From Physcia stellaris (taxonomy: Eukaryota > Ascomycota > Lecanoromycetes > Caliciales > Physciaceae): a stretch of DNA of 64,000 nt. The position numbers and the translations under genes are program-made. Positions 28,544 through 59,118 of the stretch are shown here, in pieces; positions within the stretch are counted from its first letter, which is position 1, and each line of letters starts with the position of its first letter. The stretch is from contig JABSSW010000033.1 in assembly GCA_018902385.1 (NCBI GenBank), positions 248,001 through 312,000 on the forward strand. Direction: 5' to 3'. The notes beneath the pieces are model-generated. The model ran no database searches, had not been told where the DNA came from, and saw only the letters and a list, made by a program, of their open reading frames with translations.

Positions 28544-28554
28544 AAGGCTTGGCA
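28519..28554. repeat. left arm of the inverted repeat bordering AT-rich block 1
   Basis: CATCGCCGGGC, five extra bases, then GTGGCACATAAGGCTTGGCA. The same two segments stand inverted at 45990-46020. The arm covers the start codon of the membrane-protein gene. It is probably the terminal inverted repeat of the piggyBac element. Confidence 0.7.
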
Positions 28555-29469
28555 CCCCCTACCAAAAATCGTCTGATATCGAATATCTACAATATTACAT
28601 GCAAATGCTCATTGAAACAATAATCATTGTTACATAATCGTATGTCACAAAGTTTACATTCAAATCTCGTTTTAGAATTTCGTCGTCGTCGTTGTTTGAT
28701 CATCAAACTGTTGTTAAAAAGTTTTTGTAACGATTTCATTATTCGTTTTCGTTTGACGTTTTTGCATTCGATTTGTATGCATATCACGCAATATTTGGAT
28801 TCGTTATCAAATTTTTGTATGTTTTCATGTTTTCAAATAGATGTTTTATTGATCAAATCGACTAAATCGCTTGATTTAATATTTGATTTTGAATCTCTAA
28901 ATTCATTCAAACGTTTTGAATGTTCAAAAAAATCGATAATGAAATCGTTAAAAAATGTTTTGTGAATTTTACTGTTTTTGATTTGCGTATGATCGTTTTT
29001 CGATTGTATTAATTATTTTATAATTGTTAATAATCGTAACATTGATAATCAACGCCACAACGAAAATCAAGTCTTTTTATGACTTCGTTGAATATTGTAA
29101 TAACATCGTAATTGATTCGTTACGTTCATTTCGTTCATGTAATGATTGTATAAATCAATAAATTTCGATATGAATAGCGTTTTGATCGATTCATTATCAA
29201 AAACGATTTTCGAAATTTTCGCATTAATAATCGTTTTTGCAAATTTTTTACGTTTTTTTTCGACGTATTGTCGTTTTGTATCGATTGACGTCATAAAAAA
29301 AATCATTTGTTGATTTTTTCAAGCGAATTGCAATACGTTGACATCGTTGATTATTTTTTCATACAACGTATTTCATTCAATTTGAATTTCATGTTTTAAT
29401 TTCAAATCAAAAAGTGACGAATTCAAATTTCGATTCGATTTTGAACGTTTTTTTTTTTTTAATTTCGAT

Positions 29470-29474
29470 ATTTG
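29470..29474. repeat. target-site duplication ATTTG, left copy
   Basis: ATTTG directly precedes the left LTR of the Ty3/gypsy element and is repeated at 44903-44907 directly after the right LTR. A perfect 5-bp duplication is the expected mark of LTR-retrotransposon integration. Confidence 0.8.
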
Positions 29475-29691
29475 TGTGAAATGTCATGCATTGATATGAT
29501 ACTAATACATAATTACACGAGAATTTCTAAATAGAAAGCAAATACATGAAAATCTGCAAAAACATATGTAAAAAATTTGATTTTTTGAATGCGTCAAAAC
29601 GAATTTCGATTTTAACATTCGATGATAAAATAACGATGTTAACACGATGTTAATTTTGTTCAAATGTTGAATTCGATGCACGTTCGTCACA
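29475..29691. repeat. LTR (left) of Ty3/gypsy element A
   Basis: 217 bp, starting TGTGAAATGTCATGCATTG and ending GTTCGTCACA (TG...CA). It matches 44686-44902 at the same length, with only a small number of transitions between the two. Confidence 0.85.
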
Positions 29692-32600
29692 TTATTTTTC
29701 GTTTTTCGTCAATTTCGTTTCGAAACGATTAATTGATTTTTTTTCTAACGATGAGCGATTTGTGCGCGATTTTGATGCGTCGTTAAATGATCGTTCGATT
29801 AAATGATTGTAAAAACGAAAAAATAAATTCGAAATTTTGTGAAATAGATTTCGTTCGCGAAATCGATTCGTCAAAAATTTTGAAAACATCAAATCGAAAT
29901 TCACGATGAAAACAACAATTTGATCATGTTAATAAAATCATCGCAATAACGTTTAATTCATTGATATTCATGCATATGCGAAAGATGATGTGTACATTGT
30001 ATTCAACAAAACATGAAAATAATGAATTTTTTGAAAAATAATTAATTCATACAATCTTTTGCGAACAATTTTGATGATCATTAATAAACAAACAATTGAA
30101 AATTTTGTTTTGCGCGTCAACATTTTTTAAATTTCAAATCGATTATATCATGAAACAAACAATTTGATTTCATTAATAAAATCAACGTAACAACGATTAA
30201 CGCATCGATATTTGAACGTTTGCAATAATCGATGTGTACGATTCATTCAATAAAACGAATAAATAATAAATTTTCTGAAAAATAAATAGTTTTTGCGAAT
30301 TTGATAAATAATTTCGTCGATCATTAATAAACAATTGAAAATTTTGTTGAAAATTTTGTTGATTTATTTGTATGTAACATTTTGATTTCGAACAATTTGT
30401 TGTTTATTTGCATTCAACATTTATTTTTTCATTGTTCAATAAAATCGAACGACAATTTTTGAAAATATTTTTGACACGATTTAATTTTTCATGCGTCGTA
30501 AATTTTGATTGTAAACAACGCAAAATCGAAACGAAAAATTGAATGTGAAATTATTAAAAATCAACACGAAAATGAATGTACATTGAATCGAAAATTGACG
30601 AAACAAATGTTGATTGATTACAAACATTTAATCGTTTCGCAAAGCAAATTTTGCTGTCTTTGAATTAATTTGATGAAAAACATTCACGATATTTTGAACA
30701 TTTTGAAATTCGTCGTCGTCGACATAATATCAAATGCGATCGTGAAAATTTCAATTGAATCATTTACAACGATATTGCAAACGATAATAATGATAACGAA
30801 ATTATATTATGTCATTCAATTTTCATTCGAATGTTTCGTTTGCAATAACGAATTTCGAAAAATCATTTTGTTGTTCATTCAATGAATTTTTGAATTTTTT
30901 TTTAACAATCAAAAATGAAAAACTGAATGAATATGCATGTCATCGAAAAATTTCAATTCGTAAACAATATTTCGTTTCTTGATGATTTGAAATGAATTTA
31001 ATTTTTTGTCATTCAATTTGTCAAATAAACAAATCGTTTTGATGTGACGTTTGTTCAATCATACATAATTTTTTATTTCAAAATTGATTGAAAAGCGAAT
31101 TTTGTTGATTCGAACAATTATTTTTTGATTGACATCAACAACATTGATTTTGATTCATTCGATGATGCGATTCATTTTTTCGACGATGAATTCGTTTTGT
31201 TTGATTAATAAACGTTTTTTAGTGATTTCGTAATCATTCAAATTCGAATCAAAAATCATTCGAAAATGATATTTTTTGTTGATAAAAAACGAAATGAATT
31301 TTGTAATTGTCGAAACGTCGTTGTTGTTCGCGAATTTCATGATATCGATTCAATCAATTCAATCGTTTTAACGATAATTGCAATATTGACGCAATCGAAT
31401 TTCGATGTTTTGATTAATTCGTTCTGTTTGATCATCGATTTGAAATTGAAAAACAATGAAAAATTTACATTTGATTTTTAGACGTTTACAAAAAATTTTT
31501 CATACACGATTTACGAATTGATCGTTTCGATTTGAAACGATAAAAAAAAATAAATCGTGAATACGAAATACGTAATGCAACAATATTTTGACGCAAATTT
31601 CGATTGTCAAATCGTCATCATCGATTACGCAAAAAACGTAATGACGTTTTTTAATTAAACGATCGATAATAGTGCAAATGACGTTGTTATTTTTGAAATC
31701 GAACAATTCGATTATGAAATTTATTGAAATATCGATTCATCGTTGACTAAAAATTGACAATGAAATTAATAATTCATGACGATCATCGTGTGAAATTTTA
31801 AATCGTTGACATTTGTGACAATTACGAATGTAACGTTTGATAAATAATTTTATATTAAATCAATAATAATAACGTTTAATGAGTTTTTCAATGCGATTCA
31901 TGTTTGAATGAGCACAAAAAAATTGATCGTGAACATCGCGAATTATTTCAATTATGAAATTTAATCGATTTGACATTCATAAATTTTCGTTTTTGAAAAG
32001 CACGTCGTTTCGATCGAAACATTTTTGTAATTTTATTTTTTCGTTGATGATTTGTTCATCGATTAAAATTTGACGATAATTGATGCAATTTTCATTTTTT
32101 CGATTGATTTGCATGATTCGTTCGTACAAATCGTTTTGAACATCAATCGAACATAATTGCAATCGAAAAAACGACAACAAAATTTGTTTTTTATAAAGTT
32201 TTCGTTCGTCGTCATCGACAAAACGAAATTCAAACATTCGAATCAAAACGTTCGTTTTAACATTTTTGATTTCGAATTGATATTGAATTTTGATGTTGTA
32301 ATCGATCAAAATTTCGATTCAACGTATTTGACGAAAAATGAACTTCTTGTTTGTCATGAAAATTTTTAATTTTTTATGATCGATGTAAATTTCGACGAAT
32401 TCGTTAATGTTTTCGAATTCGAATTTTCAATGTTTTAAACATCGAATAATGATTAAAAAATTTTTGTCGTATATTTCGTAATTGCATTCGACAAAAATTA
32501 TTTTTTTGTTGAAAAAATCATCGAATGAAAAACTTCGTCGTCGTCGTATTGAAATAAAACTTCATTCAAACATCAATTTGAAAAATCGATTTTCAAAATA

Positions 32601-33605
32601 GTTTTGCGATTGCGATCGTAATGTCGAAAAATTGAAATTTCAATTATTTGTTTTTTAAAAGTTTCGAAAATTTCGTTGACGAAATCGATTTATTCGAATT
32701 CAATCTTTTTTTGATTATTCGAGTCAAAAATTTGACGAATTTCGAAAACGTTTTAATGAATCGTCGATAAAAATTGCAAAAATTTACAAACGTTTGCATT
32801 TTTTTGATGTACGTTGAACGAATTCAATTAACAATGTTTTGCATCTTTTTAAAATTCATTCGTAAATTTTTTGTCGATAATATGATTTCTAAAAACGAAA
32901 TTTCTGTTTTGAAGAATTCGCGTTTTTTGATATGAATTTGAAAATCGATTTTTTTCAATTTTTGAAATATTTGAGTGAAATGTCGTTCGTGCTCTTTTCG
33001 AGTTTTATTATAACTAAAAATATCATTCAAATATATTTGACAAAAGTGATTGATGTATTCGAACAACAAATCGTTCATGTAATGTTTTCAACTGATCGAA
33101 TCATTGATTAATTCGAAAAATAATACATAATATTTGTAAATGTCTAGCGAACATATAAAAATGATGAAATTCTCGTTTTGTGAATTCATTCGAAACTTAT
33201 TGAAAATCGATATAATGTTTAATTTGAACAAGAATTTGCAATCAATAATTCTGACGAGAATTTTTTCAATCAATAAAATAAAATAATTATTGCGTTTGAT
33301 TATGACGTTCAATTTTCGATAATTCACACACAAACGAAATTGATCGTTTGATTTGACAGCGAATAAAATGAACGAAACGTAAAATGCTTTGTTTGAATTG
33401 ATAAATTTTTTTGAAAATTTTCATGAAGATATTTTGTAAAGTCTCGAGTTTCTTAAACGATAAAAAATAGACTCGATTTCGAAACAATTAAATCGATTTT
33501 TCAATCAATTCGATTTTGTGATCGTAAAATCTGTGAGAAAATAATTTATCGATTTTTTTGAAATTGAGTACGTTTTCGAATCGTTTAAAAAAATCAAAAA
33601 TTTAT

Positions 33606-36600
33606 TGAAAAAATCATGAGTGATTATCATTCTATTGCTTTGAATCTCGTTGTTTTGATAACATACATGAAATGAAAACACAAAAAATGTGCGAATGTCA
33701 AAACACTAGTTTCAACAAAAACGCATTAGTTTTTTTTTCGTCAAATTATATCAATTGATTTTTTGATTATTTTTTTGCGAAAATTGTATTTTTCAACATT
33801 TTTCACAGCATTCGTCTGTGTCTTTTGCTCAATATTCTAACGAACTCAATTTGATTTGAAGTTTTCGTGCAAACTTTTTCAAAACGACGAGTTTTAGAAT
33901 TTTTCAACGACGCGTATTCTGAAGTTTTTTCAACGATGTGTTGTTTGAAACTTTCGAACAAACTTTTTCAATGCGATGAATTCGATGCGAGAATGCAAAA
34001 TCGAACGAATCGAAATTCGATGATTTATTGATTTCAAATATAACGTAAAGTCGAATTGTAAAACGTGCGATCGAACATTTGAAAAATTGCGATCGTGTTT
34101 TGAATTTTCATGAAATGAAACATCGATACGAGAACAAATATCTAAAATGAAATAAACGATATATTATGAAACAAATATTTTTGTTTGAGTTTTGCGATGT
34201 TGAACGAAAGTGTAAATCACATCATGATTTGATAACATCATTGTAAATTTCAGAATTTTCAGATATTTTTTGCGACATTAATGAATCGATATCTATGCAA
34301 TTTGACTGTACGAAATTTATAAAATATGTCGATGCGATGCGAAAAGTTGAAAATGATCGAGAAATCGATAAAAAAGATGATACATCGAATGCGAGCAAAC
34401 TTCTGCGAACATACATCGATGCAAAAATGCAAATTCGAACTTTTTGATTTGACTAAAATCTGTCAAAGAATCAGATCGATTAATATGCGAAAAGATCAAA
34501 TATTTTCAGCATTATTTGTTCTTTTTGATCGAGTTTCTGCTTTGCAAAATCGAGTATGTAATAATTGCATAATACGTTTTCTCGAAACGATATTACGTGA
34601 TTTCATCGAATATGTAATGATTTCATAATACGCTTTCTCGAAACGATACTATTTGACATCAAATTTTTGTTGTAACAGACTCAATACGCTCTTTCGAAAT
34701 TGTATTGTCTAGTTTGTTTCTTCTTTTTTAACAACTGTACAGTAGATCAGTACGCTCGTTCGAAATTGTATTGTCATCATTGTATCTTTCTTTTTCTCGT
34801 ATTTATCGAGCGACTAAATCTCAAAAGTAATAGAAAAAGAGACGAAATTAATCGTGTTAAATCAAAACGAAACACAACAAAGATAAATTTCTATCATATT
34901 CGTTAAACAATAAAACAAATAAACAAAGCATACAACAATTTGTAAAGCTTTCTCAAATCACAGAGCGAAAAGAACGAAACATCGAATTTCATTAAAACAA
35001 CAATTTTTATGCTTTTTCAGATCATGGCCGATCAACGATTAATAAAAAAAAATGAGCGAGCAAAACAAACAAACAACATGTTAATTTTTTCAAAGCGATG
35101 ATTTCAAGAAAATCAATACTTTTTCAAAGTAAAACGAAAAGAAGCAAAACTTCAATAGCGCATTTTCATTGATATTTCATTGTTTTCAACTTTTGAAACA
35201 TTTGACATGACTCAATCGATAAATCGATAAATGACAGAACGCTTTTGACAATGTTTGCAAACAGAAAAAAAGCGAAAAAATGTCGAGAAAAAAAAAGACG
35301 CATCGAAACAAATCGAAAAATAAAACGAAACAAATGAGATGACGAGCGAGTCGACTGTTTCATCGAGACATGCATTGCTGAAAATGTTTCGAATTTGATC
35401 GTTTTGAAAACAAATGAAATCGTTGCATTGAAATATGACGTAATGCGCGTTTGTATGAAATCACAATTGCTTTTGAGATTGCATTTGTCATGAATTTTCG
35501 AAGAAAACGAACGCATTTGATGTCGTTGCAAATCAAATGAATTCGACTTTTCAACGAACATGCGAAACAAATCGTTCACGATCAAATAAAATTTCTGAAT
35601 TCGAATGTCTTGATGTTTCGATGACGAAATACGAAACGAAATGAGCGAAACAAACGAGCAAATGATTGTTGACTTCTCGAAAATATTGCACATCGATTTG
35701 AGTGTCGCAATCGAGAAACGTGAAAATTTGAATACAACGATTGATCGTGAGACGATTTCTGTTCGAAATATGAACTTTCTTGATGTTGCAATCGACAAGA
35801 ATTCTGATGAGAATTCTGAAAAAGATGTAATTAGTGACTCGATTATCAATTTCGATGACGTGAACGATGAAAAAATTATCGATACAAACGACGAAACAAA
35901 TGAAATAAATTTCGATTTTGAAATTTGCGCAAAGAATGAAATTGTTTTCGATTTCTTCGTATGTCGAATACGAATATGCTCGTGCAATTTGATGTTGTTA
36001 TCGAATTTGATCGAATGTTTGCAACGTTTGCACGTATAATTCTTTGCTCGTTTCTTGATCAAACGAATTTTTTTCTGTTGTTTCAACAATTTTTTCGCTT
36101 TTTGTTTCATTTTGTTTTTCATTGTTTGCTCGTGTTTTCGCAAATGATAACTTTTTTGTGTTTTTTTGATTTGAGTGAATCAATTACATTTCGAAACATT
36201 AATAAGACATGAGTTCGTGTGCTCGTGATATAGAGTTCGAAAATTTTGCGTTTTCGAATCATTTGCGTCGAGACAGATGCATAGAAAAAATGATCAAAGA
36301 AAAATATCGAACGACGATTCGAAAACGAGAAATGCGAAACTCGTAAAGATTGTGAATTTCGCAAAAGTAAAAATAGAAAAAGTGCATTTTTTGAGTGCTT
36401 GCATACGATTTCTGATGCACGAATCGAAAAAGACGAAAATTTTGATGACGAAAATGAGAAAATTACCGATTGAAACGATGAAACAATCGAATTAGAAAAT
36501 GAAATCACATGCTCAACAAATTGTTGAACAAATTTCGATTTCGATGATACGTTCTCTGAACGTTCGCGTACAATTTCTGATACAAAAATCGAAAAAATTG

Positions 36601-37129
36601 ATAATTTTGATGAAGATGACATGCTCGTCAAATCGAATGTAAATGTTGAAGTCGTCAATTTGACTGAGTGATAAATAGACGAATTCGTGAAAAATTCGCA
36701 AGATGATTAAATAAATGTTATCGATGTAATTGAAAATGTATTGAAATATTGAATGTTGTCAATGCAACTGAATCGATTTCTGATCTGACAAGATTGAATA
36801 TTTCATTGAGTTGATATTGTTGTTGTATTGCAAATTTGTTGTATTGCGCGATTAGTTATTACGTGCTTTGACATGTTTTCATGTTGCTGTAATTGATACT
36901 AAATAGCGAAAATTGTTAATTCGATTTTCATAATCTATTGAAAAAATCATAAGTGACTATAATTCTATTGTTTTGAATTTCGTTGTTTTGATAACATACA
37001 TGAAATGAAAACACAAAAAATGTGCGAATATCAAGACATTAGTTTCAACAAAACGCATTAATTTTTTTTTCGTCAAATTATATCAATTGATTTTTTGATT
37101 ATTTTTTGCGAAAATTGTACTTCTCAACA
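33606..37129 (-). mobile_element. LTR-bounded element B nested in element A
   Basis: Direct repeats of about 191-193 bp (33606-33798 and 36939-37129) begin TGAAAAAATCAT and end CAACA. They enclose about 3.1 kb. No reverse transcriptase is recognisable. A long minus-strand frame (35166-36143) starts with a basic region and a C2H2-type zinc-finger-like segment (YTCKRCKHSIKFDNNIKLHE followed by HIRIRHTKK), then Ser/Phe-rich sequence. It looks like a non-autonomous LTR element. It is broken. It keeps more CpT and ApG than element A, so it is likely younger. Confidence 0.65.
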
Positions 37130-38306
37130 AAATTTTACGTTTCAATTTTTCAATGATTGTTTTCATAATTTTAAACGTTTTTTTGAATTCATATCGAGAT
37201 CGAATTTTGTTTGAATTAGATTTTTTTGACGTTGTCAATAATTTCATTTAGTTTCTTCATGATCAACGAGAATGTTTTGATTTTCTTTCTTTTTTCTTTA
37301 AATTCGATCAGAAATTGAAAAACGATCGCGTCGATAAAAAAAACATTTAAAAATATATCGAAATTTAAATCGTTTTCATATTTTTCGTTGTCGAAAATTG
37401 TGATTTTAAATCGTCGACTAAATCGTCGAGTGAATTTTTTGACTAAATTCGATTTTCGAATAGAAAATTTCATGAATGTAAATTGTTGAAATTCTCGTAT
37501 AATTTTAATACGTCGTTTCTTTTTAAAGAGTTTGACGAGAAAATATTTTTTATAATTTTTTTCAATGACATATCGAAAATTGAAATCTAACACGATTTTC
37601 GAAAAAAAATCATTTTTTTCATCGTAATTTTCGATTGTAAATCGAAATGATTGAATTTTAATCGTTTTCGACGATGAACGTTTTTGCAAAATCGTATATT
37701 TTTGCGAGTTTATCGATATTGAAGACTTTTCGAACGATATGAAAAATGACAAATAAATAATTTTTGATGAATGTCGATGCTCAAAAAACGTTTTCAAATT
37801 TTTAGACGTTTCGAAATGAGTACAACGATTTGATTTAAAAATGATTTTATCGATTTGCATGTTTAGCATCACGTCGTGCGTGTTCATTCAAAATTTATTC
37901 AAAATCAAATAATGAACGTCTATTTTCGTAATGAACATGAAAATAGATAATTCAAAGTGATTTTGCACTGTGAATGTGAAATAAATGACATGAATAATAG
38001 ATTTGATCAAACGATCGTCAAACTCGTTGACGTGTTTGAGTCAAAGAAAAATTACAAAATTTATTTAAAATTTTTCACAAATTAATTGTGCAATTTTTTC
38101 ATTAATAAAAACGAATTCAATAACATTTGTGTTAATTAATGTTTACACATTGTGTTTGTATTTATCGAAAACTAATATATATTGAATGATTAATAAAATA
38201 TTTGTGAATTTATTAAACGTTTTAAATGTTTTAAATATTGTTGAAATCGACAATATTTTTTTCGCGACTTTGAAAAAATTTAGACGTTTTTGTAAAACTC
38301 AAAAGA

Positions 38307-41300
38307 TGTGACATCAAAAATGTATAACAGAGACGATTGTATAACTAGATTAATAATTGCAAAATTAACTATTTTACAGATTTTTGTTTATATAGTCAGT
38401 CAATTTGCTCAATCGTACACATATTTCGAAACATATTCGAAAGTATGAATTTGTTAAATTCAATCGAAAATTTGATGTAGACGTGATCAAATTGATTTTT
38501 TCGATAATCGAATTGCTTGATATAATTTTATCGAAATTCGATTTGTTGTTTCGTTGATTTGAATTTTGAATGTTTTATATGCGTTTTTTTTTTAACATCG
38601 AAGTTTTTTGAGATGATCAATATTTTTCAACATTGAGATTTTTGAACGTGTAAATATGTTTCGTTTTTGAAATTTGAAAAATCGTTGTAATCGCGATTTT
38701 CGCATCGAGTATTCAAATTTGAAAAAGCATTGTGATCGTGATTTTCGCATCGAGTTTCGTTTTTTTCGATTCGTAGTCAATTTGCGATAAAAATTTGAAA
38801 ATTATCTTCGTGAATGATTCAAAAAAAACATGATTTAATGACTCGATTGTCTGTTGTTTTCAATATCGAAAATTTGATTTCGTACAATTCACAGTTTTCG
38901 ATTTGATGATTGATTGACAATTGATTGACAGAAAATTTTGAATTCGAATCATTTTTTATTTTTTCATCTCTTTTTTTCTCGAGTTTTTATACAGAAATCG
39001 AACGTTACAATGATGCTAAACGAAATAAAATCGAATAATCGCGATTTTCGCAAATGATATATCGAGTTTTCGAAATTTTCTTGATTTTCTATTTTTATCT
39101 CATCATGATATTCAACGTTCAATTAGATCGAACAACAATTTCTGAAAATGTTTTTGACACGATTCAGTTTTTCATGCGTCGTAAATTCTAGATCGTAAAC
39201 AACACAAAGTTGATGACATAAAATCGTGATGCGAACATGATTGTTTTCGAATCAATTGTTTTGTTAAAAAGATTATATTTTGAACGCGTTCAACGTTGAA
39301 CGTTTCATGATGTTAAATTGCTTTAAAATCGATTGTATCATTAGAAAAATTGCATTCGCAATGCTATGTTTTTCAAATATGTTTTCGCTGTACGATTTTG
39401 CTTTTTAGTTTTATTTTTTGATTTTACTTTTTGATTTTATTTTTTGATTTTATTTCTTATCAATGTCGTTGTTTTCTGATTGATGTATGAATTTTAGCGA
39501 AACTTTTTTTTTTCTTTTAGTTTTAACTTTTTCAGAAAACGAAACGACGTCAAAACGATTTATTTTCGAAAGATTTTGACATTTTTCACGCTTTACTCTT
39601 CGATAAATCGCTATGAAATTCACGTAAAGTTAATTCATATCAATTTTCGTTGAATTGAAACGATAATTTATCGTGTGATTTTGAACGAAATGTTTGTTTG
39701 CAATTTTCTGATTCATGTTTGCATGTTTAAATTTTGTCAAAATGTTTTGCGCATTATATTTTGCAATTTACGATTTGATGTATGTTTATGATTTGATTTT
39801 ATTCATGTATTTTCGTTTTTCGCTTTATTCGATCAACATACGTTTCGAAATGTTTTTCATCAAAATGTTCGATCAAATGCGTTTTACATCGAAAATTCGA
39901 TCAGAAAGTTGTCTGTATGAACGACGTTTTTTTTTAATTTTATTCGATTTGCAATATTTTCGTATTGATTTTGAAATGCTTTTCATCAAAATGTTCGATC
40001 AAAAATTGTTTCACACGAATGACGTTTCTTTCTTTTAAAATTTGAAAGTAAAACAATTGTGTGTTAAATTTTTGACTTTGTTTTGTTGTCAATCGAGTGT
40101 GATCATATCAGAAATAACTAATTTTTGTTTCATTTGAATCGCGCACGAAATTTGCGACAATGAACGAATTCAAACATCGAAAATCGTCGTCATTGTTTGA
40201 CAATGAACGAGTTCAAACATCGAAAATCGTCGTCATTGTTTATTTTATTTCAGATTTTTGAATATGTTTTTGCTCAATCATTCATTGATCAAATTCGAGA
40301 ATTCGTGCATTATCAATATTATTATATTCATCGACGATCACGTCTGACACAATCGAGAGCAAAACGAAATCATTTCGAGAAATTAATTTTTCGTTGTTAA
40401 GAATTTTTCGAAAACTTTGTAATTTCTTTATATTTTCTTCATGACTCGGCCGCATCGAACTGACTTGAAAAATCATTATAGTCGTGATCTTCGCATCTGA
40501 CAAACTCGAATTGATCGAAACGTTTGCAGAAATCGTCGTTAATACGTCAAATTGACGATTGCTTTTGAATCGATTTTTTCTTTCAATAATTTCTTTGTGT
40601 TTGTTGAGATTTCGATGATACTATGATCTAAAATAGACTATTGCTTTGTTTTTGATATCGATTTTCATTTAACGATCTATTCGAATCGAATTGTTGCAAA
40701 ATAAATATTTTCAATTTCGAAATGCGTTTTTGTCGACGCGATTGATCATTTGTTTTGATTTTTACTTCTAGATTTCGTTTTCTTTTTATTTTCTTTTTTG
40801 TGAAATTCTTTTTGCTCGATTTCAAACTCGATAAAATTCGATGAAATCGTTGTTTAAATATTCAATCAAATATGTTTCGATATCGTTAATCATCTTTCGA
40901 TAAAGAATAAACAGAATTGTGAGATGATTTTGTTTAATTGCAAATTTTATTACATGTTTGCGATTCATTGCGCGTTCGTCAAATTTGTTGATGTTCATTG
41001 AACAAATTGTATGTTCATGATTGTTGCATGTTTTCGATTTTCGATAGAATTAAAATTATGAAAATTCATTGCTCAAAATGCGTTTCATGCGAAATCGTAT
41101 TTTCGCTATTTAAATACTCGTACGAATACAACAAAGACTTTGTCTCGACTATAAATAATAAAGTCGATCGATTTTTTCGATTCGATATGTTCGAAACGAT
41201 TTATGATGAAAAAATTTTGCATTGAAGAATGTCAAAATCGATATTTTGATCGATATATTCATTTTGATTTTGTTGCATCATGAAATTCTACGATCGATTT

Positions 41301-44902: not shown

Positions 44903-45989
44903 ATTTGTTTTGATTTTTATTTTTTTTCGTATTGTTTTGAAAATTCGTATTGTATCAGCGATTTCAAAATCAATCGTTTTGCATTGTATTATTCAATCGA
45001 TCGATGTAAACAGATTACTCATTCATAATACGCAACTGTAATCGTCAGAAATACTCTTCTGTTGTAACAAATCGAAACATACGATTTGAATCTTGAAAAA
45101 TTTTCATTTTTTGATGTAAACAGAATTCAAATTCACGAAATCTTTTTTGTCATTTTTGACATGATACAGTCAATTCAATACATAATCATCGTTAACTAAT
45201 ATTCAGATCTTGTAATCTTCAGATTTCGATTTCGATAATATGTGAACGATGACATCAAATCGATTCATAAAACGTTGTATTGTTTCGTCGACGATCAAAT
45301 GAATATCGATATTTCAATATAACTTGAAAAATACACGAAAATGTTCGCTAAAACGATTCATTTTTTGAAATACGTCTCGATGTATTGTATCGACTGAAAT
45401 CAAATGAAAAAATCGATTAATTTGTTTTCAACGTTTCAAGAAAATGTGTTCTGAAACAGATTTATGAATAGATTTCGTATCTTTTGTGTTTCAAAAATTC
45501 TCAATACAGCTTTCAAGATGTAAGCTCATGTATATTCAGATAACAATATAAGCTCGTAATTTCTTTACAGTAATAAAAAATCAGATACGAGCGTACGATT
45601 TGTTTTCAAAATTGACGTGAAAATCTGCTTCGTATTGATTCGTGCAATCGATCAGATATTGAAAAATTTCAAACGTAAAAAACAGACTAAATATGTCATA
45701 TGATGTACGAAGTACATGCTGAAATAATATATTTAAATCGTGTTTTAAATCGTCTTTGATACGAAGTGGTTTGAATTTCGGCATCGATCAAAGTTTGAAA
45801 AAGAGTTGTTTTGATATTTTGATAGCAATAAACGCGTCATTTACATGATTCACATCGTCTGATACGCGATTTCGACTCATATTGTATTGAATACTTGAAA
45901 TAACGAGAATTAAAGAGATGTTGACGATGTAATGTGGATGTAAAGTAGGTAGGAAACGCGTCGTTTGATGTTTTGGTGGGATACGCGAA

Positions 45990-46020
45990 TGCCAAGCCTT
46001 ATGTGCCACGCCCGGCGATG
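45990..46020. repeat. right arm of the inverted repeat bordering AT-rich block 1
   Basis: TGCCAAGCCTTATGTGCCAC then GCCCGGCGATG: the exact inverse of the two conserved segments of 28519-28554, without the five-base spacer. It marks the sharp return from AT-rich to GC-balanced DNA. Confidence 0.75.
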
Positions 46021-48457: not shown

Positions 48458-50240
48458 CTAGATGCTGAACCTCCCTGCCGCCAACATATCCCTCATGACC
48501 AACTTTCCAAGCAAATTGGGCGTGACCGCATTGCCTAGCAACAGCAAGAACGGCACATCAACGCTAAAGGCTATGAAGAACCAAGTGCGGAACTCGGCCG
48601 CTAACATGCTGTCCATGCCCCATTTCATCAAAGCCATGTTCCTCTCGATGTTTGCCGCAGGCACCAGGATCAAGTTGGCGAGACGCTGTACAACAATGAT
48701 GGTCATGGTCTCCCTCACCGTCTCCTCGTCGCAACCCGCGGTCTCGAGTGTCGCGGCCAATGCAGAGGGCAGGCCAGCGTCAGTCTTCTTACTGTGCAGG
48801 TCTGATTCACCATCCAGCGACGAGGCAAGAACGGCTGTACCAGGACCGTCGAGAGTAGGGATCGTGCCTTCGAATTCATCCGGCGAAGCTTCTTCATTCC
48901 CTGTGTTTCCAAACCGGTAAGCACGTGTGCCTCACCAGACTCGAGCTTTGGATCGCGAGCAAAGCTGATGACGATAATGGAGAGAAGTTCTTCCTATTTG
49001 ATAAGCGCGATGCCCTTGCGCAGGAGTACGGCTTCGATTTCCGGGTTCTCGTGCAGGTATCCGACTTCGCTAATCGCGCCGAGCCCGATCGAGAGAGCTA
49101 GATAGCCGTGTGAGCGTCTATACTTGGCGAAATTATCTATGAAGCTGCTGGCGGCGGTATAATTACTTTCAGTGGTTGAATCAACCGCTTCAGCCACAAA
49201 GGAAGTCATGACGAACATGTTGACGCTTTTGGCTGCGACAGATGGTGCGTGGTTGAGAAGCGCATTGTGCAGATTTCAGGGACTTTCGGTGCGACAGACG
49301 TGTGCCACGATGTGTTTGCCATTGAAGTCCAGATTGATTCGTCCAGGCCCATCGCTGCTTGGACTACACCGCCGATGGGGCCGGAGACAGAGTCTACACA
49401 GCTTTGCACAACGGCGGTTCTGCTAACAGCCCAGAGCGGCCGATAAAGGCAAAGTTACGGGCTCCTTGCTTCATCATCCATTTCGAGATGCTAAGACCAA
49501 TACCTCCGAGGCAGCCACTCAGGACGTAAGTCTTCTTTGCAAAGAATTTGGTGTCGTATTTGGCTGGCACTGGCAGAACCCGGACAAGGGAGGTGTCCTT
49601 CTCGAAAGAAATTGCAATCTTGCCCATTCGGTTTTTGGAAGAGAAATAAAGGAAGGTGCACCATCTAGAGCTTGCCCAGTCACGGATCTTGTTGAATGCG
49701 ACAACACGAGTACAGATCCGAGCGACGGTTAGACTGATGGGGGGCGTCTTCACACGAGCATCAAGACCCCAAACCACTAGCGTGAGTTGAGCAGAGATCT
49801 CGGGGTCTGAGGTACCTTAAGCACGGCAGAGCTGCCGAACCAGAAAAAGTGCCCGTCGTCTGGTGTGAAGCTCAGCTGATTTCCCCAATAAAATGACTTC
49901 CCTGGCGATCCGCCGCTGCCAGTGTTCCGCAGACTGCTTGGTCATGGTGACACTGGGCGACCGTGCGTGTAACCCTTCGCTTATTGTTACCACGCTCTTC
50001 GGACGTACCTCCGCATGGCGGATTAGTAATCAGCAGGCGAACACGAGTGGCACAACCCATATTGGTCGCAACTCGCAAGCAGCTGCATCTTCAGCTTGCA
50101 AGACTTTGGCCAACTGTCTGTAGCTAGCGTCTGACTGGCTGGTGTATTGGTAGGGGTGGTCCAGTCACTCCAGTGCGGTGTTCCCATCCACCGTTGAAGC
50201 CTAGAAATAAGCTTATCTACCTTATCTCGTTCGGACACGG
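48458..50240 (-). pseudogene. C-terminal relic of a highly reducing polyketide synthase (KR and ACP)
   Basis: Minus-strand pieces in several frames follow polyketide synthase order. A ketoreductase core lies at 49394-49500 (KKTYVLSGCLGGIGLSISKW, MMKQGARNFAFIGRSG) and continues at 49206-49409 (GPIGGVVQAAMGLDESIWTS) and 48994-49218 (ESNYTAASSFIDNFAKYRRS, SIGLGAISEVGYLHENPEIE). An acyl carrier protein lies at 48458-48760 (MKWGMDSMLAAEFRTWFF, with the phosphopantetheine Ser in DSM), ending at a natural-looking stop. Upstream (49.5-50.24 kb) there are weaker remnants, such as LSFTPDDGHFFWFGSSAV. The parts are separated by frame changes and stops. The ketosynthase, acyltransferase and dehydratase domains are absent; the relic ends where AT-rich block 2 begins. 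The normal protein would be about 2300 or more residues. Confidence 0.7.
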
Positions 50241-50245
50241 TCGAA

Positions 50246-50310
50246 TACTCGTGTCGCCCAGAAGTGAGCTTTAGCGTTAGGGTTTAGGGTTAGCGGTTAT
50301 TGCCCGCTTA
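50246..50310. repeat. left inverted terminal repeat of AT-rich block 2, with telomere-like motif
   Basis: It reads TACTCGTGTCGCCCAGAAGT, then GAGCTTTAGCG, then TTAGGGTTTAGGGTTAG at 50277-50293. The inverse of the right end (59055-59118) matches over about 60 bp with scattered differences, including TTAGGGTTAGGGTT. Confidence 0.75.
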
Positions 50311-50951
50311 CCTCCCCGCACGATGCGGAGTAACTCAATCAATATTTTCTCTATCTTCACCCAATTTGTTAAGCATCAGTGAAAATTTCGATAGTCTAAT
50401 TGCTTCGTTCAATTCGTTCAAAAACGCAATAAAATTTTCAGTCTGCGAAGCTCTGACGTCATGACAAATACAATGCAATTTATCGTCAATGCAATTTGTA
50501 AAAAAAAAATTTTCAAAATCTCGATTTCGAATTTCGTCTACTAATCAGTACGAATAATTCGAGCAACTTTTCTATCGCTCATAAAATTTCTCAGTTTCAC
50601 GATTTTATTGTTTTCACGTCTCGAGCGAGCGATATCACTCAAAACGAAAACATGACGTTAATGACGAACAACGATTTCTTGAGTTGAATACGACATTGAA
50701 ATATTGCTCGTATAACGATTCGAATGACTCAAATTATATCTGTACAAAATCAAATTGCTGAAATTTCTCGAACGTATATCTGAAAAGATGTTATTTGCAT
50801 GAAATTTCAAATGAATGTTTTTTAAATTTCATCGTCGTCGAAAAATTAGCTTTTGAAATGAAAAACGTCGTCGAAATTGTAACATCGTTGCAATTTGTTT
50901 CGTCAATTAAACACTGTTTCGTTCGTTTTCATGAGTATCGTGAGTCGTTTT

Positions 50952-51159
50952 TGAATAGACGTATTATTGACTAACTAGACGAAAACAATAAATCTGCAAA
51001 AACAAATAGATACAAAATGTTGAAATTGCAAACAATGTGCGACGTCAAATTTCAAATCACGTTAATTTCAACGTAAAAATAAAGCATAATTCGTTGTTCG
51101 ATTACATATTATATTCATTATCTATTTGTCAAATTCATTTGTCAAACATGCTCGTAACA
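50952..51159. repeat. LTR (left) of Ty3/gypsy element D
   Basis: 208 bp, starting TGAATAGACGTATTATTGAC and ending GCTCGTAACA. Partner of 57418-57625, with the same length. The differences between the two are almost all C/T or G/A. Confidence 0.85.
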
Positions 51160-54100
51160 TTATTTTTTTTTTTCGCGAACGTCGTTTCGACGATTCGTTG
51201 TTGTTTCGAAATTGAAAAATCTTGTTGAGAATTTTGTTGACTCATTTGAATGTTTGCAAAATTCAAAAATTTCACGATTATCATTTTTCATTTTCAAATG
51301 TTTCGTTATTGTTTCAAAGCTCGATAAAATATGACAACAATTTTTGAAAATATTTTTGACACGATTCAATTTTAAATGCAACGTAAATTTTGACTGTAAA
51401 TAACATCGAAACGATAACGAAAACTAAAAACTGCGAAAACGTTGCGAGAATGAAATCGAAATGAATGTATTGAATTCGAAATTTTCAAATTTTAATCGAA
51501 TGTAATCTCGATTAATGTCAACATGACGATTTTTTCGAAAACGACGACGATTCGCGAAAAAATTTGATTCGTTAACAACGTTTTGAAATATTGAAATCAA
51601 CGTTTTGAACGATTTTAAATTTGCAATTATGAAATGAATGCGATAAAAATCGTTTATTACGTCGCAAACATTATCAAATTTTTCGTTATCGACATAATAT
51701 TATGTTCGATTATGCGATCAATTCGATCAATTGACACGATATTGAAAACGATTGTAATAATATCGAAATTTCAAAATATCGTTCATTTTTCATTCGAGAT
51801 TTTGGTTGATTATGACAAAATCAAAAAATTCATTGATTTGATTTTCGAATGAATCACGAAAATTTTGCGCAAAAATCAACAATGAAACATATCGTAAATA
51901 TGCATGATTTCAAACAATTCGAATCGATATGAATTGTTCATACGTTGTAATATTTTGTAAAAATTTAATTTTTTGTCATCGAATTTGTCAAACGATTTGA
52001 TCGTTTTGATGTTTCGTCGATCGAAAAAAACGAAATTTTTTCGACGTATTTTACGATTTTTCGATGTTTGTTGATTTGAATTATTATACGTTTTTAAATC
52101 ATTTTTGCATGATTTCGTACGTAATTGAAAATATTTTGCATCGTGTCGATAATATTTTTTGTTTTGATGATCAAAAATCGTTTTTTCGTTGTAACATACG
52201 AAATAAAATTTGATGAAAAATTTATACGAAAATGAAAATTTTTATTGATGAAAAATGAAAATAATTTTGTTGTTGCAAATATTGCGTTGTTGTTTGCAAA
52301 TTCGATCATGAACAATCAAACGTTTTAATCGTTTTGCATGTAATTGCAATATTGTCGCAATTGTTTTTCGATATTTTGATTGATTTTTTCGATTTGCTCA
52401 TCGATTTTTGAATGAAAAACGATGAAAAATTTACATTTGATGTCGAGAATTCGACAAAATGTTTGTCAAACGAACGATATGAATTGAAAATCTCGATCAA
52501 ACGTTATCGAGAAAAATAATTCATGTGTACGAAATACGTAATTGATGAATATTTTGATTGTGATTTTAACATTGATATTTTCGTCGTCGACGATACAAAA
52601 TACGTAATGACGTTTTTTGTTAAATTTGTCAATTATCGTGCATATGACATTATGATCGTGAACGTCGAACAATTCGATGATGAAATTCATTGATATGTTT
52701 ATTCAACGTTGCAAAAATATGATCAAAAAATAAATAAATCATTTTTGCGATTTTTGAAAATTTTCGTGCGTTAACATTCATAACAATTACGTACGTATCG
52801 ACAAATCGTTTTGCGCATATTGAATCAATAATAATCGCGACGTATAAAATTTTTCATGCGATTAAAATTTGAATGTTTCGAAACAGAAAATTCATGAATT
52901 TTTTTGAAAAAATCAACGAGTAAAAAAGCATCGACGAGCATTCAAAATCGATTTTTTCAATACAAAACGTCGTTTTTTTCAATGCAATTTCGTAAATCCA
53001 TTTCATTCATTGAAATGAAATTTTGCTCGATGATTTCACGATAAATCGTGCAATCATCGTCAATTTTGTTGACAACAAAAACTCGTTCATAAATAGATTC
53101 GTCAATTTTCATCGCGTGAATTTCGAATCGTTTCGAAATAAACAATATTTGTTTTCGATATTGATGTCGTTCGTCAATATCGTTTTTTGATTGTAAATCA
53201 AACATACGAATTAAAACATTTGTTTTAACGTTTTGAATTTCGAATTGAAATTGAATGACAATATTGAATTTCGAGAAAGTTTCTGCTCAACGAGTTTGAC
53301 GAGAAATTAGTTTTTTTGACGTCATAAAAATTTTCAAATTTTTGTGATCGATAAAAATTTTGATCGATTTTTCAATGTTTTCAAACTCAAAACGTCAATG
53401 TTTTAGACAACGAATAATAATCAACAATTTTTTGTTATAAATTTCGTAATTGCATTCGATTGAAATCATGTTGCGATTATAAAAAACAACGAAATACAAA
53501 ATTTTTTCGTCGTCGTATTGAAATAATATTTTCGCATTGACGTAATTAAAAAAATCAATTTTCAAAATGATTTGTTTGATTCGATCGTAATGTCGTAATA
53601 TGAAAATTTCGATCATCGTTTTTTTGAAAAAATTGAAAATTTTTCGATTTCAACAATTCATTCGAAATTCACGAATTTTTTGATCATTCAGTGAAAATTC
53701 GAATTTTTTTCGAAAAATCACGAATGAATCGTTTGTAAAAATTGACGAAATTCACGAAAATTTGCATTTTTTTCAAATTTGTAAAACGTTTTCAATTGAC
53801 AATGATTTTTATTTTTTTCGAATTCATGCGAAAATCATTTATCGATAATATAACGTTCAAAAATGTTATTTTTTTTTGAAAAATTCGCATTTCTCAATAT
53901 TCATTTGTAATTCGATTTTTTTGAATTTTTTCAACATTTTACGAACGTGAACGATGTGTTTTTTCTTGAATTTGTTGTAAATGAAAATATCATTTAAATA
54001 GATTTGACAGAAATCGTTCAAAAAATTGAACAACAAATCGTTCATGTAATGTTGTCAATTCGCGAATTCGTTGATCAATTCGAAAAATAATATTCGATAT

Positions 54101-57100
54101 TTGTACGATTTCATGAAGATAACGAATGTGATGAATTTTTCATTTTTTTCACTCATTCGAAATTTGTTGAAAATCGATATGATATTCAGTTTGATCAAAT
54201 ATTTGCAATTTTGCATTTTAATTAAAAATTTTTCGATCAAAAAAATGAAATATCGATTGCGTTTTGTGATGTAATTAAATCGTCGATAATTCACACACAA
54301 ACGTAATTGATCATTTAATTTGATTGCAAATAAAACGAACGAAACGTATGTTGTTTGATTGAATACGATGAAATTTTTTGAAAATTATTTTTCAAATATT
54401 TTTGAATTTTGAAATTTGAATTCGAACAAAAATGTATTCGATTTCGAAACAATGTATTGTTATCGTTTAAAAATTCGATTTTGTGATCGTAAATTCGATG
54501 CGACGACAATTCAATTGTTTTTTGAAAATCGAATATTTTTGACAAATGTTTGAATATTTCGATATTTTTTTCATTATACGTTCAAAAATCGATTTGATTT
54601 GTTCGTGTTTCAGAATTTTTTGATCATGACGACAATTTTCAACGATTCAAAATTTGTTCGCAATGTTTTGAATGCGAAATCGATTTGATTGATCGTAATG
54701 AAAAAACATTGCATTTTTTGTTTTCGATTTTTGAAATCGACGAATAAACAAAAAAATCGCATCAATCATCGCGATATTCATCGAATCGTTTGAATTCAAT
54801 TTCGAAAATGAAAAAATTTCGAATTGTTGTTTTTTGATTTTTCAACATTTGTTGCGTTGTTTTTTCAAAAATTTTTTTGACGAATGTCGCTTTCGTAATC
54901 GTTGTGATATCAATTTTTGAATGATTTGATTCAACGACGAACGATTCGTCATTTTGATCGATTTTCGAATGAATAAAACAATCGAAACATTTTAAATCGA
55001 ATACGTTTGATTCGTTTTGTACATAAAACGTTGAAAAACTAAATTGCGAACGAAATAAAATCGTATATCGAAATTTTATTGCAACAATATGTTTCGCATT
55101 ATTTGTTTTCGATAAAAAAACATCGCGACGTCAATTAAATACGTTTTATCGACGATTTGAATCAAAAATTTTCAAACGTCGAGTTTGCATTCTTTGATGA
55201 ATATATTGTCATAATGATTACATTTGAACGATTTGAAAATCAATTTATCGTAAATTATATTCAAAATAATTTCATATTTGTTTATTCACGATTTTTCTAA
55301 AATTATCGAATGATTGTTCAAATCGATGATAAACAAAAAAACTGTCAATTCGAAATGCAAATCAATTGTCAACTTGAAATAAATGACATGAATTATTGAA
55401 AAAATTTGACGATCGTCAAATTCGATAATGAATTTCGATTTTAATAAAAATACGAAATTTATGTTCAACATGTTGCATACAAATTGCGCAATTTTTCTAT
55501 TAATGAAAACATAATCAATTGCATCAATGTTTATTAAAATTTTTAATTTATGTTTATTATCGTTGAATGACAACGTACAATTAATGATTAAAAATAATTT
55601 GACAAAAAAATCAAACAATTCGTCATGATGAATAAAGAAAATTTTTAAACATTCATCAATCGCGTTTTTGATGTGAATTATCAATTTTTCGAATCAAATT
55701 CGTTCGATTCGTTGATCATGTTCATGTAAAACATTTGCATTTTGTGTCAATGACGTTTTTGATGTTTGTAAACGTTCGAATATTTTTTTTATACGTGATC
55801 GATTTCATCACACGTGAAACATTTATTCGTGACGATTAATTTGTCGATCATCGAATCACGAATTTTAATTTCAACGTTGAAATGAAAATAAATTGTAAAT
55901 TTCACGAAAAAAATCGAAATGACAAATTTCGTAAAAAACATCGAAATCGAAACGACAAAAATTGATTTGAATTGAAACAATTCAAAACGTTGTTGACGTG
56001 TCGCGATTTTTTTTTTTCGAAAATTCGATTGTCGATTGTATATTTGTTGCAAAATGATTCGAATTTCATCGAACGTGATGAATTCACGTGAATATACATT
56101 TATCGTTTTTTTCAAATTTCAAAAAATTTTGTTCATCAATTTTTCGATTTTGATGATTTCGCTATAATCAATTGAATTGTTAAAACGAAAAAAAATGAAA
56201 TAAAAAAATTGAAAATTTTGAATATTCATGATCAATGTTCGAAATTGATTACGCATATTGCGTTTGAAATCAAAATTTTCGTAAATAATGTTCAAAAATT
56301 TCAACATCATATGTCAAATTTTGAAATGATTCATATCAATATCACGAATCGATTGTATGTGATCATCGATATCATTTTCAATTCAATCAATCACAATAAT
56401 GATTGCGATCATGTTCGTGTCGTAATGATCAACGTTGATCGTCATTTTATCGTGTATTTTTGTTTTTCAAACACGTCAAATGAATTTTATTTCATCGATG
56501 AATTTAAAAAATTTGAATGTGTTTTGAAACGTCGTTTGTTTTTTTGAAAAAAATTAATTACGTTGATTTTATCGTCGTTTTTTTCATCGTCGACGTCAAA
56601 ATTTCGTGCACGATCGCGAATTTTGATCAACAAAACGTCGTGATTTTTTTTCAAAAAAATGTAATTTTTTTGTTTGATCAAAAATAAATCACGTTGTTTT
56701 TCGTATTCGTTTTTCAAAATATTCAATTTTCGACGAATTTTATTTAATTCGACATTCGTATTGATCAGTTCGTCACGATCGACGTTGACAATATTGTACA
56801 AATTTTGATATTGAATCAAAACGTTCAAATAGTTATCACGATCGATGCGTAATCGATCAAATTTCTTTAAAAAATCGACGACTTTATGATTGACTCATCA
56901 TTTCAATTGATCGATGATGACGATATTCAAAAAATGAATGATTTCGTCATTTTTCATTTTTATGAACTCGATCGTTGATACAAATCGACGACGTTTGAAT
57001 TGATCAACGAAATTTTCGTCAAAAAAATTGTCGTTAATTTCATGCAACATACGATTCACGTTGACACGTAACGTTTTAAAACGTTGTTTCATCGAAATAA

Positions 57101-57417
57101 AAAATTCGAAAAAAATTGTTTCGTGATGATTTCGAATCATAATTGAAAATGAAAAATTGAAAATGATAAAAAAAAATTAATCGTGTCAATTTTCGTTTTC
57201 TATCGTCGATTGCGTGAAAATTCGATTTGTTATTTCACGATTTTTTCGTCAAATGTCTCGTCAGAAAAATTTTTTGATCGTTTGTTTGATCAACAGAATT
57301 TTTCGTCGTTTGTCTCGTCAAAAGAATTTAATCGATTTGAAATTTTATTTTTGAGCGTTCGCGTATCACGACGAGCGATAAAAATTGAAAATTTATTGTA
57401 ATATCATGAATTTTGTT

Positions 57418-57625
57418 TGAATAAACGTATTATTGATTAATTAAACGAAAACAATAAATTTGCAAAAACAAATAAATACAAAATGTTGAAATTGCAAACA
57501 ATGTGCGACGTCAAATTTCAAATCACGTTAATTTTAACGTAAAATTAAAACATAGTTCGTTGCTCGATCACATATCATATTCATTATCTATTTGTCAAAT
57601 CTATTTGTCAGACATGCTCGTAACA
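57418..57625. repeat. LTR (right) of Ty3/gypsy element D
   Basis: 208 bp, partner of 50952-51159, ending CATGCTCGTAACA. Confidence 0.85.
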
Positions 57626-58506
57626 ATAAGCAGAAAGTTTGATTTTCAAACGTCTTTTATCGCTTTGTAAATTTTTTTTTTCATCATTTTCGCGATTTTT
57701 CGAATTTTCTTTCAAATAGATTGCAATCTGTTCTTCAAAAAATTTCATACGTTTTTTATCGAATGCAAATAAAACGAATTCGACGATCAATCAATGATGA
57801 ATATATCAAAATTTTCACGAATTGATTTCAGAAATTTTGCAACTTTTTGATGCGATTCAACATTGTTTTCGATTAATCAAATTTTTCGTTCAGAATTTCG
57901 TTCTTTTATTTTCAAATAGAATTTATGAATGTAAAACGTGACGATTTCATTGATGTACTTTTCATCAATAATGTCGTAATTTCGATCAATGAACATAATG
58001 TCGTTTTTTTTGAAAATTTGATTAATGATTTTTTTGCGTTTGCAATTTTTTTGTTTTGTTTCGTCGCGATTTTTGCGTTTCTCGTTGAATTGAATTATCG
58101 AGCGATTAATTTTTTAATTTTTGTTAGTAATTTTTTAGCAAAATCGAGAAGAAATTTTTACATGAAATTTGTTGTATGCTCAAATTTCTGAAATTTCGAC
58201 GTTTTTTCGATTTTTCGCAATTTTCTTTTTCAATTGTTGATTTTTCAAAACATTTTCGAAATCAGTTTTTCGTTTTTTTTTTTCGATTTTAGTTTTTTAA
58301 TTATGATAAAATTTCATGCGAGTTTCAATTGATATACAGTTTCATTGCATTATTGTGAACTCGATAATGTTTTGAAATATATTATAGTTCTCGACGAATG
58401 TGTTTTTTGATCGAATAACGTTTTCAAAATTCGATTTAACGTTCATTTCATGAAAAATTTCGTTTGTACAAATGAAAACGATTTTTTCGTTTACTTTTTT
58501 CATACA

Positions 58507-59004
58507 TCAGTCGCAAAAATTCTTTTTTTCTTTGTCATGTTCGACATCAATACGAGATTTTTTTGCAACTCGTTCACGCATCAATTCGTTCATTTCATAA
58601 TTTTTTTCATCGAGATGTTGATGTTCATGCTGTATGCGTTCAATCAAAAAACGAGAAAATCTTTTTTTGTCGAAAATATCAACGTTTTTCTGATTCATTA
58701 CAGCAATGTATGATTGCATGTTAAAATGTTTCAACATAATTTTTTTGATTTTTGTTGACGTCACACTATCATTTTTTACACGTGTAAATCGTTCAGTACG
58801 CTTAACGTTTTCGCAATTCTGAAATAAATCGTTAAAATCATCATTTTCAACTCGAAATCGAGTTTTTTTGTAAATGTTTTTTGCGATCAGTTTTTTCACT
58901 CTCGTTTTCGTTTCAATTTTTTCAAAATTTGAGTCGTAAAGACAGTGATTTGTAATGATGACACAGCGAAACGCATAAATAATTTCAGGATCGTGTGAAG
59001 TCAT
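58507..59004 (-). pseudogene. open reading frame of the unknown TIR element (165 residues, unrecognised)
   Basis: Begins MTSHDPEIIYAFRCVIITNH at 59004 and continues through charged, helical sequence (RRERVAKKSR-like segments, QHEHQHLDEKNYEMNELMRE). 165 codons without a stop is notable in DNA this heavily mutated. It is followed by more sequence of the same character that contains stops. No catalytic motif is recognised; it could be the N-terminal DNA-binding part of a transposase. Confidence 0.4.
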
Positions 59005-59054
59005 GATAACAATTAATATGATTTGAATTCAGGAGGTTTGTTTATTGTTTTGGT

Positions 59055-59118
59055 TTACAAGCGGGGAGAAATGTCAACCCTAACCCTAATTTAAGCTCAC
59101 TTTTGGGCGTCGCGAGTA
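59055..59118. repeat. right inverted terminal repeat of AT-rich block 2, with telomere-like motif
   Basis: Contains CCCTAACCCTAA at 59078-59089, then AAGCTCACTTTTGGGCGTCG and CGAGTA. It is the inverse partner of 50246-50310. Confidence 0.75.

Follow-up and report, generated by a model that had tools for sequence, protein, structure and literature searches.

Results

The DNA studied here is a stretch of 64,000 nucleotides from the genome of the lichen fungus Physcia stellaris (assembly GCA_018902385.1, contig JABSSW010000033.1, positions 248,001 to 312,000), hereafter called the window; coordinates refer to it unless another locus is named. It carries two AT-rich blocks, both of which contain hypermutated long terminal repeat (LTR) retrotransposons. 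Block 1 (28556..45985; GC content 0.278) consists of nested repeats and block 2 (50300..59050; GC content 0.271) lies further downstream. Cytosines followed by cytosine (CpC) are nearly absent from both, and cytosines followed by thymine (CpT) are down by about 70% in block 1 and about 84% in block 2, so that the loss falls on cytosines before a pyrimidine (CpY) and hardly on those before a purine (CpR). The initial annotation, made from the letters of the window alone, had described the affected DNA as a single span, 28556..59075. The AT blocks themselves are confirmed, but the span is interrupted by a normal genic island (about 46000..50300), which is unmutated (55.7 CpC and 66.4 CpT per kilobase (kb) per strand) and served as an internal control. 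Dinucleotide counts of the gene-bearing flank (1..28555) were used as the reference for unmutated composition.

Per kb and strand, CpC drops from 58.0 in the gene flank to 0.5 in block 1 and 0.8 in block 2, and CpT from 65.9 to 19.6 and 10.5, respectively. CpA stands at 62.3 in each block against 68.4 in the flank, and CpG at 56.6 and 61.9 against 55.5. Of the 33 CC/GG positions that the two blocks retain, 25 are no more than 250 bases away from an edge. The TpA/ApT ratio is 0.44 in block 1 and 0.39 in block 2 compared to 0.69 in the flank. A recount of the seven 60-base lines on which the signature had first been noticed (starting at 30481, 31501, 37561, 43381, 52561, 56401 and 58561) reproduced the earlier tally exactly, i.e. 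36 CpG, 27 CpA, 2 CpT and no CpC. The block-wide figures also accord with the observations on GG, AG and ApT versus TpA originally made on single lines, and they bear out the claim that both strands were mutated. TCA rises from 17.8 per kb in genes to 32.3 in the blocks, while genic TCA plus CCA amounts to 36.5; the gain of TCA and TCG roughly equals the loss of CCA and CCG, which is what conversion of the leading C of CC to T would produce. The blocks have sharp edges, where CpY declines several-fold over 100-200 bases with CpR level throughout, and the genic DNA adjoining the blocks is untouched.

The direction of mutation was read against unmutated copies of the element in block 2, a gypsy-type LTR retrotransposon at 50936..57626. 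Two such copies, L025 (contig C5) and L026 (contig C12), were found among the 10 of 150 scored reverse transcriptase matches in the genome that lack a stop codon. Both are LTR elements with a GC content of about 0.5-0.6 and normal CpC, which accounts for 22-34% of C contexts when the interior of the elements is divided into 500-base bins, and they align along their length with the window copy. The copy lies on the minus strand, to judge by the reading frames of L025, with which it aligns in the same orientation, and is 72% identical to each of them, with C-to-T nearly the sole difference. The two references differ from each other by 3.6% (96% identity over 6.7 kb) without any CpC or CpT bias, and the identical LTRs of L026 (224 bases) suggest recent transposition. 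Both adjoin hypermutated DNA, and next to the unmutated LTR element of L026 this DNA holds a tandem array of units of about 161 bases (L026:7321-8894; 10 copies listed, two spacings of 149).

At sites where L025 and L026 agree, the window copy has changed from C to T at 839 of 858 CpC, 680 of 741 CpT, 60 of 794 CpA and 21 of 806 CpG. Against these 1600 C-to-T transitions stand 13 changes of other kinds at C and 17 at the 2797 A:T pairs compared, and transitions of this type are thus nearly the sole class of change, as in RIP (repeat-induced point mutation). The 3' base decides whether a cytosine is mutated and the 5' base has little effect (TCC 210/213 mutated, TCA 20/210, TCG 6/246). Since CpC is normal in the unmutated copies of the same element, the CpY deficit was absent before mutation.

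The same signature recurs in repeat copies on many contigs of the genome. For the gypsy family, a 1-kb piece of L025 returned 40 listed matches (of 216 candidates), two of them unmutated, and 20 of the other 38 were analyzed. For the copia family, an unmutated piece gave 36 matches, of which three were unmutated and 10 of the remaining 33, mostly from the better-matching end, were analyzed. Pooled C-to-T fractions are 1843/1919 (CpC), 1877/2377 (CpT), 126/2314 (CpA) and 54/2099 (CpG) in the gypsy copies, and 755/801, 864/1141, 129/1230 and 68/944, respectively, in the copia copies. The third unmutated copia copy, used as a control, showed no bias (3/84, 1/116, 4/123 and 5/97). The mutated fraction is higher for CpC than for CpT in 19 of 20 gypsy and 10 of 10 copia copies, and higher for CpT than for CpA in each of the 30; in the pooled gypsy copies ACC, CCC, GCC and TCC are all mutated at fractions of 0.95-0.99. 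Alignments to unmutated relatives therefore give mainly CpC and CpT changes and not the CpA-to-TpA changes that would speak for ordinary RIP. Pairwise comparison of mutated copies without an unmutated reference points in the same direction but more weakly, the pairs being non-independent and their CpC exhausted.

Low-GC parts of 20 further regions around copies of one window repeat, picked by repeat content (19 of 10 kb and one of 8 kb), carry the signature as well. Sorted by GC in 500-base bins of these loci and the window, CpC is lost first, CpT next and CpA last: at 36-39% GC (5 bins only) the residual fractions are 0.30 for CpC, 0.85 for CpT and 0.98 for CpA, and at 20-23% GC (100 bins) they are 0.00, 0.07 and 0.78, with CpG at 0.98. 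In two lightly mutated repeats (L006:1-5000 and L018:4800-7966; GC about 0.40-0.42) more C/T differences fall in CpC than in any other context (30 of 60 and 15 of 39 in the two stretches that were aligned).

The tempo of mutation was judged from the A:T pairs. Seven of the 20 gypsy copies are unchanged at all of their roughly 444 A:T pairs although 80-99% of their CpC and 38-100% of their CpT have changed; five show 7-9 A:T changes. The absence of A:T changes in the former argues for a burst rather than slow decay. L032 (contig C95) and L033 (contig C51) are the two least mutated copies. L032, the least mutated of all, has changed at 74 of 93 CpC, 45 of 117 CpT, 1 of 116 CpA and 0 of 105 CpG with no A:T change, which corresponds to hit rates (-ln of the unmutated fraction) of about 1.6, 0.49 and 0.009 for CpC, CpT and CpA, very roughly 180:55:1 given that the CpA figure stems from one event. 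Neighboring CpT sites on one strand agree in state more often than in shuffles, a hint of patchy action, on the minus strand of L032 (51 vs 41.2, fraction 0.003) and the plus strand of L033 (35 vs 26.7, fraction 0.017).

The consequences for coding are severe. In two frames of 1012 and 496 codons compared between the unmutated and the window copy, all 23 tryptophan codons have become stops and none of 105 proline and 70 glycine codons is kept, while 55 of 56 glutamine and 41 of 48 histidine codons remain. TGG turning into TGA with CAA and CAG untouched is what a CpC-directed process produces, as CCA becomes TCA on the other strand. Across the genome, stops in RVT_1 matches are 250 TGA, 33 TAA and 3 TAG (from 150 scored matches among 527 candidates; 10 have none), those in RVT_2 matches are 401, 101 and 3 (137 matches, 150 of 165 candidates scored, four without stops) and those in DDE_1 transposase matches are 44, 3 and 0 (10 matches, one without stops). 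When the mutated reverse transcriptase frame of L017 (394 amino acids) was used as query, 608 related database proteins were found, and 63 of the 120 listed have neither proline nor glycine in 23,419 residues, including 33 of the best 37; their glutamine plus histidine content has a median of 5.7%. The remaining 57 contain some proline or glycine, and the unmutated pol frame has 7.2% and 4.9%, respectively. As far as protein sequences can tell, this suggests the same signature in other genomes, the query itself being free of both residues and some matches possibly stemming from Physcia. A scan of IMG/VR for related mutated reverse transcriptase DNA gave 87 pattern matches and no relative.

The initial annotation had proposed inspecting the genome for RID and DIM-2 methyltransferases. 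A search with the PF00145 profile gave four matches in three genes, one DIM-2-like and two of the RID family, all intact-looking. The gene on contig C3 (L002) has DNA_methylase and DUF7893 matches above the cut-offs, a BAH match below the cut-off, and a match of 608 bits to PDB entry 9bap, which we take to be Neurospora DIM-2; by its sequence it is DIM-2-like. The protein encoded on contig C5 (about 932 amino acids) is of the RID1 type with the motif-IV loop SPPCQFFSD, whereas that on contig C6 (L001) is a short, divergent RID-family paralogue of 513 amino acids with the loop SPPCQSFSPAQ. A quick tree was built from 70 rows chosen by hand, after removal of one row that lacked the motif. In it the C6 protein clusters with proteins of Heterodermia and unnamed ones from the database (8 rows, 99%); this group sits with the Eurotiomycete DmtA clade and apart from RID1 at an open fork (88%), and the protein is separate from the short RID-like proteins of Teloschistales. 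In the customary naming of methyltransferase motifs, all three proteins keep the motif-IV cysteine and motifs I, VI, VIII and X when inspected by eye.

Among 109 aligned RID-family sequences (P0121-P0229) the residue after the motif-IV PCQxxS is aspartate in 40, proline in 62 and another in 7. Of the 48 named rows, 19 have aspartate (e.g. Physcia, Heterodermia, Usnea, Alectoria, Lecanora and several Teloschistales) and 23 proline (e.g. Xylographa, Trapelia, Icmadophila, Lasallia and Botryotinia). No other alignment column split the two groups, which are defined by this very residue, at the threshold used. We regard a link between this residue and the target context as a lead that may be worth following, not as evidence. 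Several lichen fungi, among them Xanthoria and Polycauliona, have RID-like proteins (P0155, P0166, P0218, P0226, P0188, P0215 and P0220) in which CK replaces CQ or SPSC replaces SPPC in the catalytic SPPCQ motif.

Standard indices fail to detect this kind of mutation. RIP-positive kilobases were defined by the RIPper thresholds. The earlier note had suggested computing the standard RIP indices for the blocks: none of the 25 low-GC kilobases of the window and none of the 183 in L005-L024 (0/208 in all) is RIP-positive.

The LTRs of the gypsy-type element (left 50936..51162, right 57402..57628) are 90% identical, and their 18 C/T differences comprise 12 CpT, 4 CpA, 2 CpG and no CpC, in line with the earlier reading that LTR differences fall mostly in CpT and to a minor part in CpA. 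In block 1, LTR-like repeats lie at 38291..38577 and 42403..42691 (93.4% identity; 10 of 15 C/T differences in CpT) and at 33599..33798 and 36932..37129 (9 of 11 in CpT), and another repeat pair at 29475..29706 and 44686..44917 (4 of 8 in CpT). A 651-base piece of this block (37600-38250) matches at least 40 places in the genome, 40 out of 122 candidates having been scored. Two minus-strand open frames in the mutated DNA, 35166..36143 (325 amino acids, with 14 glutamines and 11 histidines) and 37216..37887 (223 amino acids), contain no proline, glycine or tryptophan and have no Pfam match. Rfam and tRNA searches of the window gave no match. An ankyrin-repeat open frame lies at 21248-22696; enrichment of ankyrin-repeat genes in lichen fungi has been reported (PMC12542154).

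Discussion

Our analysis points to a RIP-like defense against repeats with an inverted context preference, most likely catalyzed by a RID-family methyltransferase with altered recognition of the 3' base, and we give this explanation a probability of roughly 0.78. Repeated DNA would be recognized, presumably by homology, and cytosines on either strand would be converted to thymine if the next base is a pyrimidine; CpC would be hit first and almost to exhaustion, CpT after it, CpA to a small extent and CpG hardly at all. The candidate catalyst is the RID1 protein of contig C5 or the short paralogue of contig C6, and the process may act before meiosis. At the level of sequence, the context, polarity and burst-like tempo, the mutation of both strands, the sharp edges, the spread over many contigs and over gypsy, copia and DDE matches as well as the intact look of the genes are documented. 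The initial annotation had left the choice between a RIP-like process with a CpY preference and a different deaminase or methyltransferase; this reading is supported by the mainly CpC and CpT changes relative to unmutated copies and by the normal CpC of the latter. An altered RIP enzyme is favored over a different deaminase because of the burst kinetics, the action on both strands, the dependence on the 3' base and the intact-looking RID and DIM-2 genes.

According to its genome paper, the P. stellaris culture was derived from ascospores, hence the fungus has a sexual cycle, which speaks for this explanation; the same paper describes contigs assembled from nanopore reads and two rounds of polishing with MiSeq data. 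Several observations weigh against the explanation. Two gypsy copies (96% identity over 6.7 kb) and three copia copies (93-97% identity) coexist in this ascospore-derived genome in unmutated form, so that the process is either not fully efficient or not acting on them now. CpA is mutated above background (7.6% in the window copy, 19% in one copia copy), which indicates a strong preference and no absolute rule. The A:T background is higher in copia copies (213/4815 pairs) than in gypsy copies (52/8883), and the argument for a burst therefore rests mainly on the gypsy family. TAA accounts for 12% of the stops in RVT_1 and 20% in RVT_2 matches; some stops may predate the mutation or lie in introns. 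The other strands of L032 and L033 and four other copies fail the 0.05 level for patchiness, and strand-processive action is only weakly suggested.

In a slow-decay scenario, an enzyme such as the DIM-2-like one would methylate CpC and CpT in repeats, and the resulting 5-methylcytosine would be lost over a long period through spontaneous deamination. This scenario could draw on the presence of the DIM-2-like gene and on the small CpG and CpA excesses, which could be such decay. It would bring background substitutions as well, and seven gypsy copies without a single A:T change are hard to reconcile with it; nor is CpY-specific methylation of repeats known to us. A concentrated process such as RIP fits the tempo, slow deamination does not, and we consider the scenario improbable. 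Slightly better, although still unlikely, stands an APOBEC/AID-like or other non-RID cytosine deaminase that edits repeat DNA or reverse-transcription intermediates. Such enzymes yield C-to-T bursts and might explain the local patchiness in L032 and L033. APOBEC/AID enzymes depend on the 5' base and act asymmetrically on the strands. In Physcia both strands are mutated, which sets the pattern apart from editing of a single cDNA strand; it is the 3' base that decides, and the uniformly high fractions for ACC, CCC, GCC and TCC leave little role for the 5' base; and DDE transposase matches, i.e. elements without reverse transcription, share the stop signature. A search of the genome with APOBEC_N found no match, and its control gave none either.

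The remaining explanations carry far less weight. That nanopore sequencing misread methylated C as T in repeats is very improbable even though the contigs were assembled from nanopore reads: MiSeq reads 5-methylcytosine as C, and the assembly was twice corrected with such reads. The 63 reverse transcriptase-related database proteins that lack proline and glycine and keep glutamine and histidine may also argue against an artefact. Ultraviolet damage in an exposed lichen would hit dipyrimidines, which CpC and CpT are. It is ruled out for practical purposes by the sparing of TCA and TCG where TCC is nearly exhausted, and the genic DNA beside the blocks is untouched. A composition inborn to the elements, without mutation, has a negligible chance and is ruled out by the GC content and the CpC share of the unmutated copies.

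The proposed CpY-directed RIP shares with RIP in Neurospora crassa and most Pezizomycotina the C:G-to-T:A changes on both strands of repeats, the sharp edges, the spared genes and the RID- and DIM-2-like genes. In sharp contrast, CpA is nearly spared in Physcia, CpC is hit first and stops are mainly TGA. The canonical CpA-to-TpA preference with raised TpA/ApT and lowered CpA is not seen here, but this preference is the usual signature of RIP rather than its strict definition, as CpT and CpG variants have been reported (PMC4352252). Transposons of Botrytis, Sclerotinia and Magnaporthe, all of which possess a RID/Masc1 gene, are known to carry C-to-T changes at CpT (Amselem et al. 2015, PMC4352252), and another study counts CpT-to-TpT among the dominant forms seen when sequences of RIP-capable fungi are aligned (van Wyk et al. 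2021, PMC7882544). In the former study CpT accompanies CpA and CpC is absent from the main text, whereas in Physcia CpC is hit harder than CpT, with CpA spared. Minor CpC depletion or CpC-to-TpT double changes were described in Stagonospora nodorum (RIPCAL paper, PMC2621366) and Monilinia (PMC8959702), where the CpA-to-TpA change that is nearly absent in Physcia is classical or dominant. Basidiomycetes such as Microbotryum and rusts likewise show repeat-associated C-to-T mutation outside CpA, directed at CpG (PMC4352252); CpG is the best preserved context in Physcia, and those genomes have a Masc2-type gene with no RID-type gene found. The lichen fungus Cladonia rangiformis resembles Physcia in its low-GC retrotransposons, sharp edges and RID and DIM-2 homologues (PMC12542154). 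The main text of that paper has no occurrence of CpA, CpC, CpT or dinucleotide. Most DNA derived from transposable elements is at 10-20% GC there, below what CpY loss alone would give in Physcia, and other contexts are probably mutated there too.

We class the mutation in Physcia as a RIP-like process with a CpY preference: it works like RIP, RIP genes are present and the target preference is inverted. No report of CpC-first or CpY-specific RIP was found in the literature searched, most subscription papers being outside its reach, and the main text of the P. stellaris genome paper contains neither 'RIP' as a whole word nor 'repeat-induced'. According to a survey published in 2025 that covered 1,239 species of fungi, a preference for CpA is common to RIP-like defenses (PMC12543289). 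Its 130 species with strong recent signatures belong to four classes, Lecanoromycetes not among them, and the name Physcia is absent from its main text; the P. stellaris genome is a counter-example to the preference as stated there. Indices based on TpA/ApT and CpA score this genome as RIP-free, and common RIP-detection tools would miss such mutation; indices for CpC and CpT do exist in RIPCAL (PMC2621366). The coding outcome is also altered, with TGG-to-TGA changes in place of CAA or CAG becoming stops and with the loss of all proline and glycine codons in the element compared.

It is conceivable, at slightly less than even odds, that a whole lineage of lichen fungi has a re-targeted RIP, in which a RID-family enzyme (the short paralogue or RID1) would deaminate C before pyrimidines, CpC first, erasing proline, glycine and tryptophan codons and making TGA stops, and which would have gone uncounted in surveys as the common indices look only at CpA and TpA. 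A natural switch of this kind is plausible given that, in a C5-methyltransferase from bacteria, a small number of changes to the target recognition domain shifted the specificity from CG to CC (PMC10899764). With two RID-family genes and one DIM-2-like gene at hand, the question of what sets the target base of RIP becomes testable, and a re-targeted RIP, if true, would be a natural specificity switch for learning how RID reads its target base.

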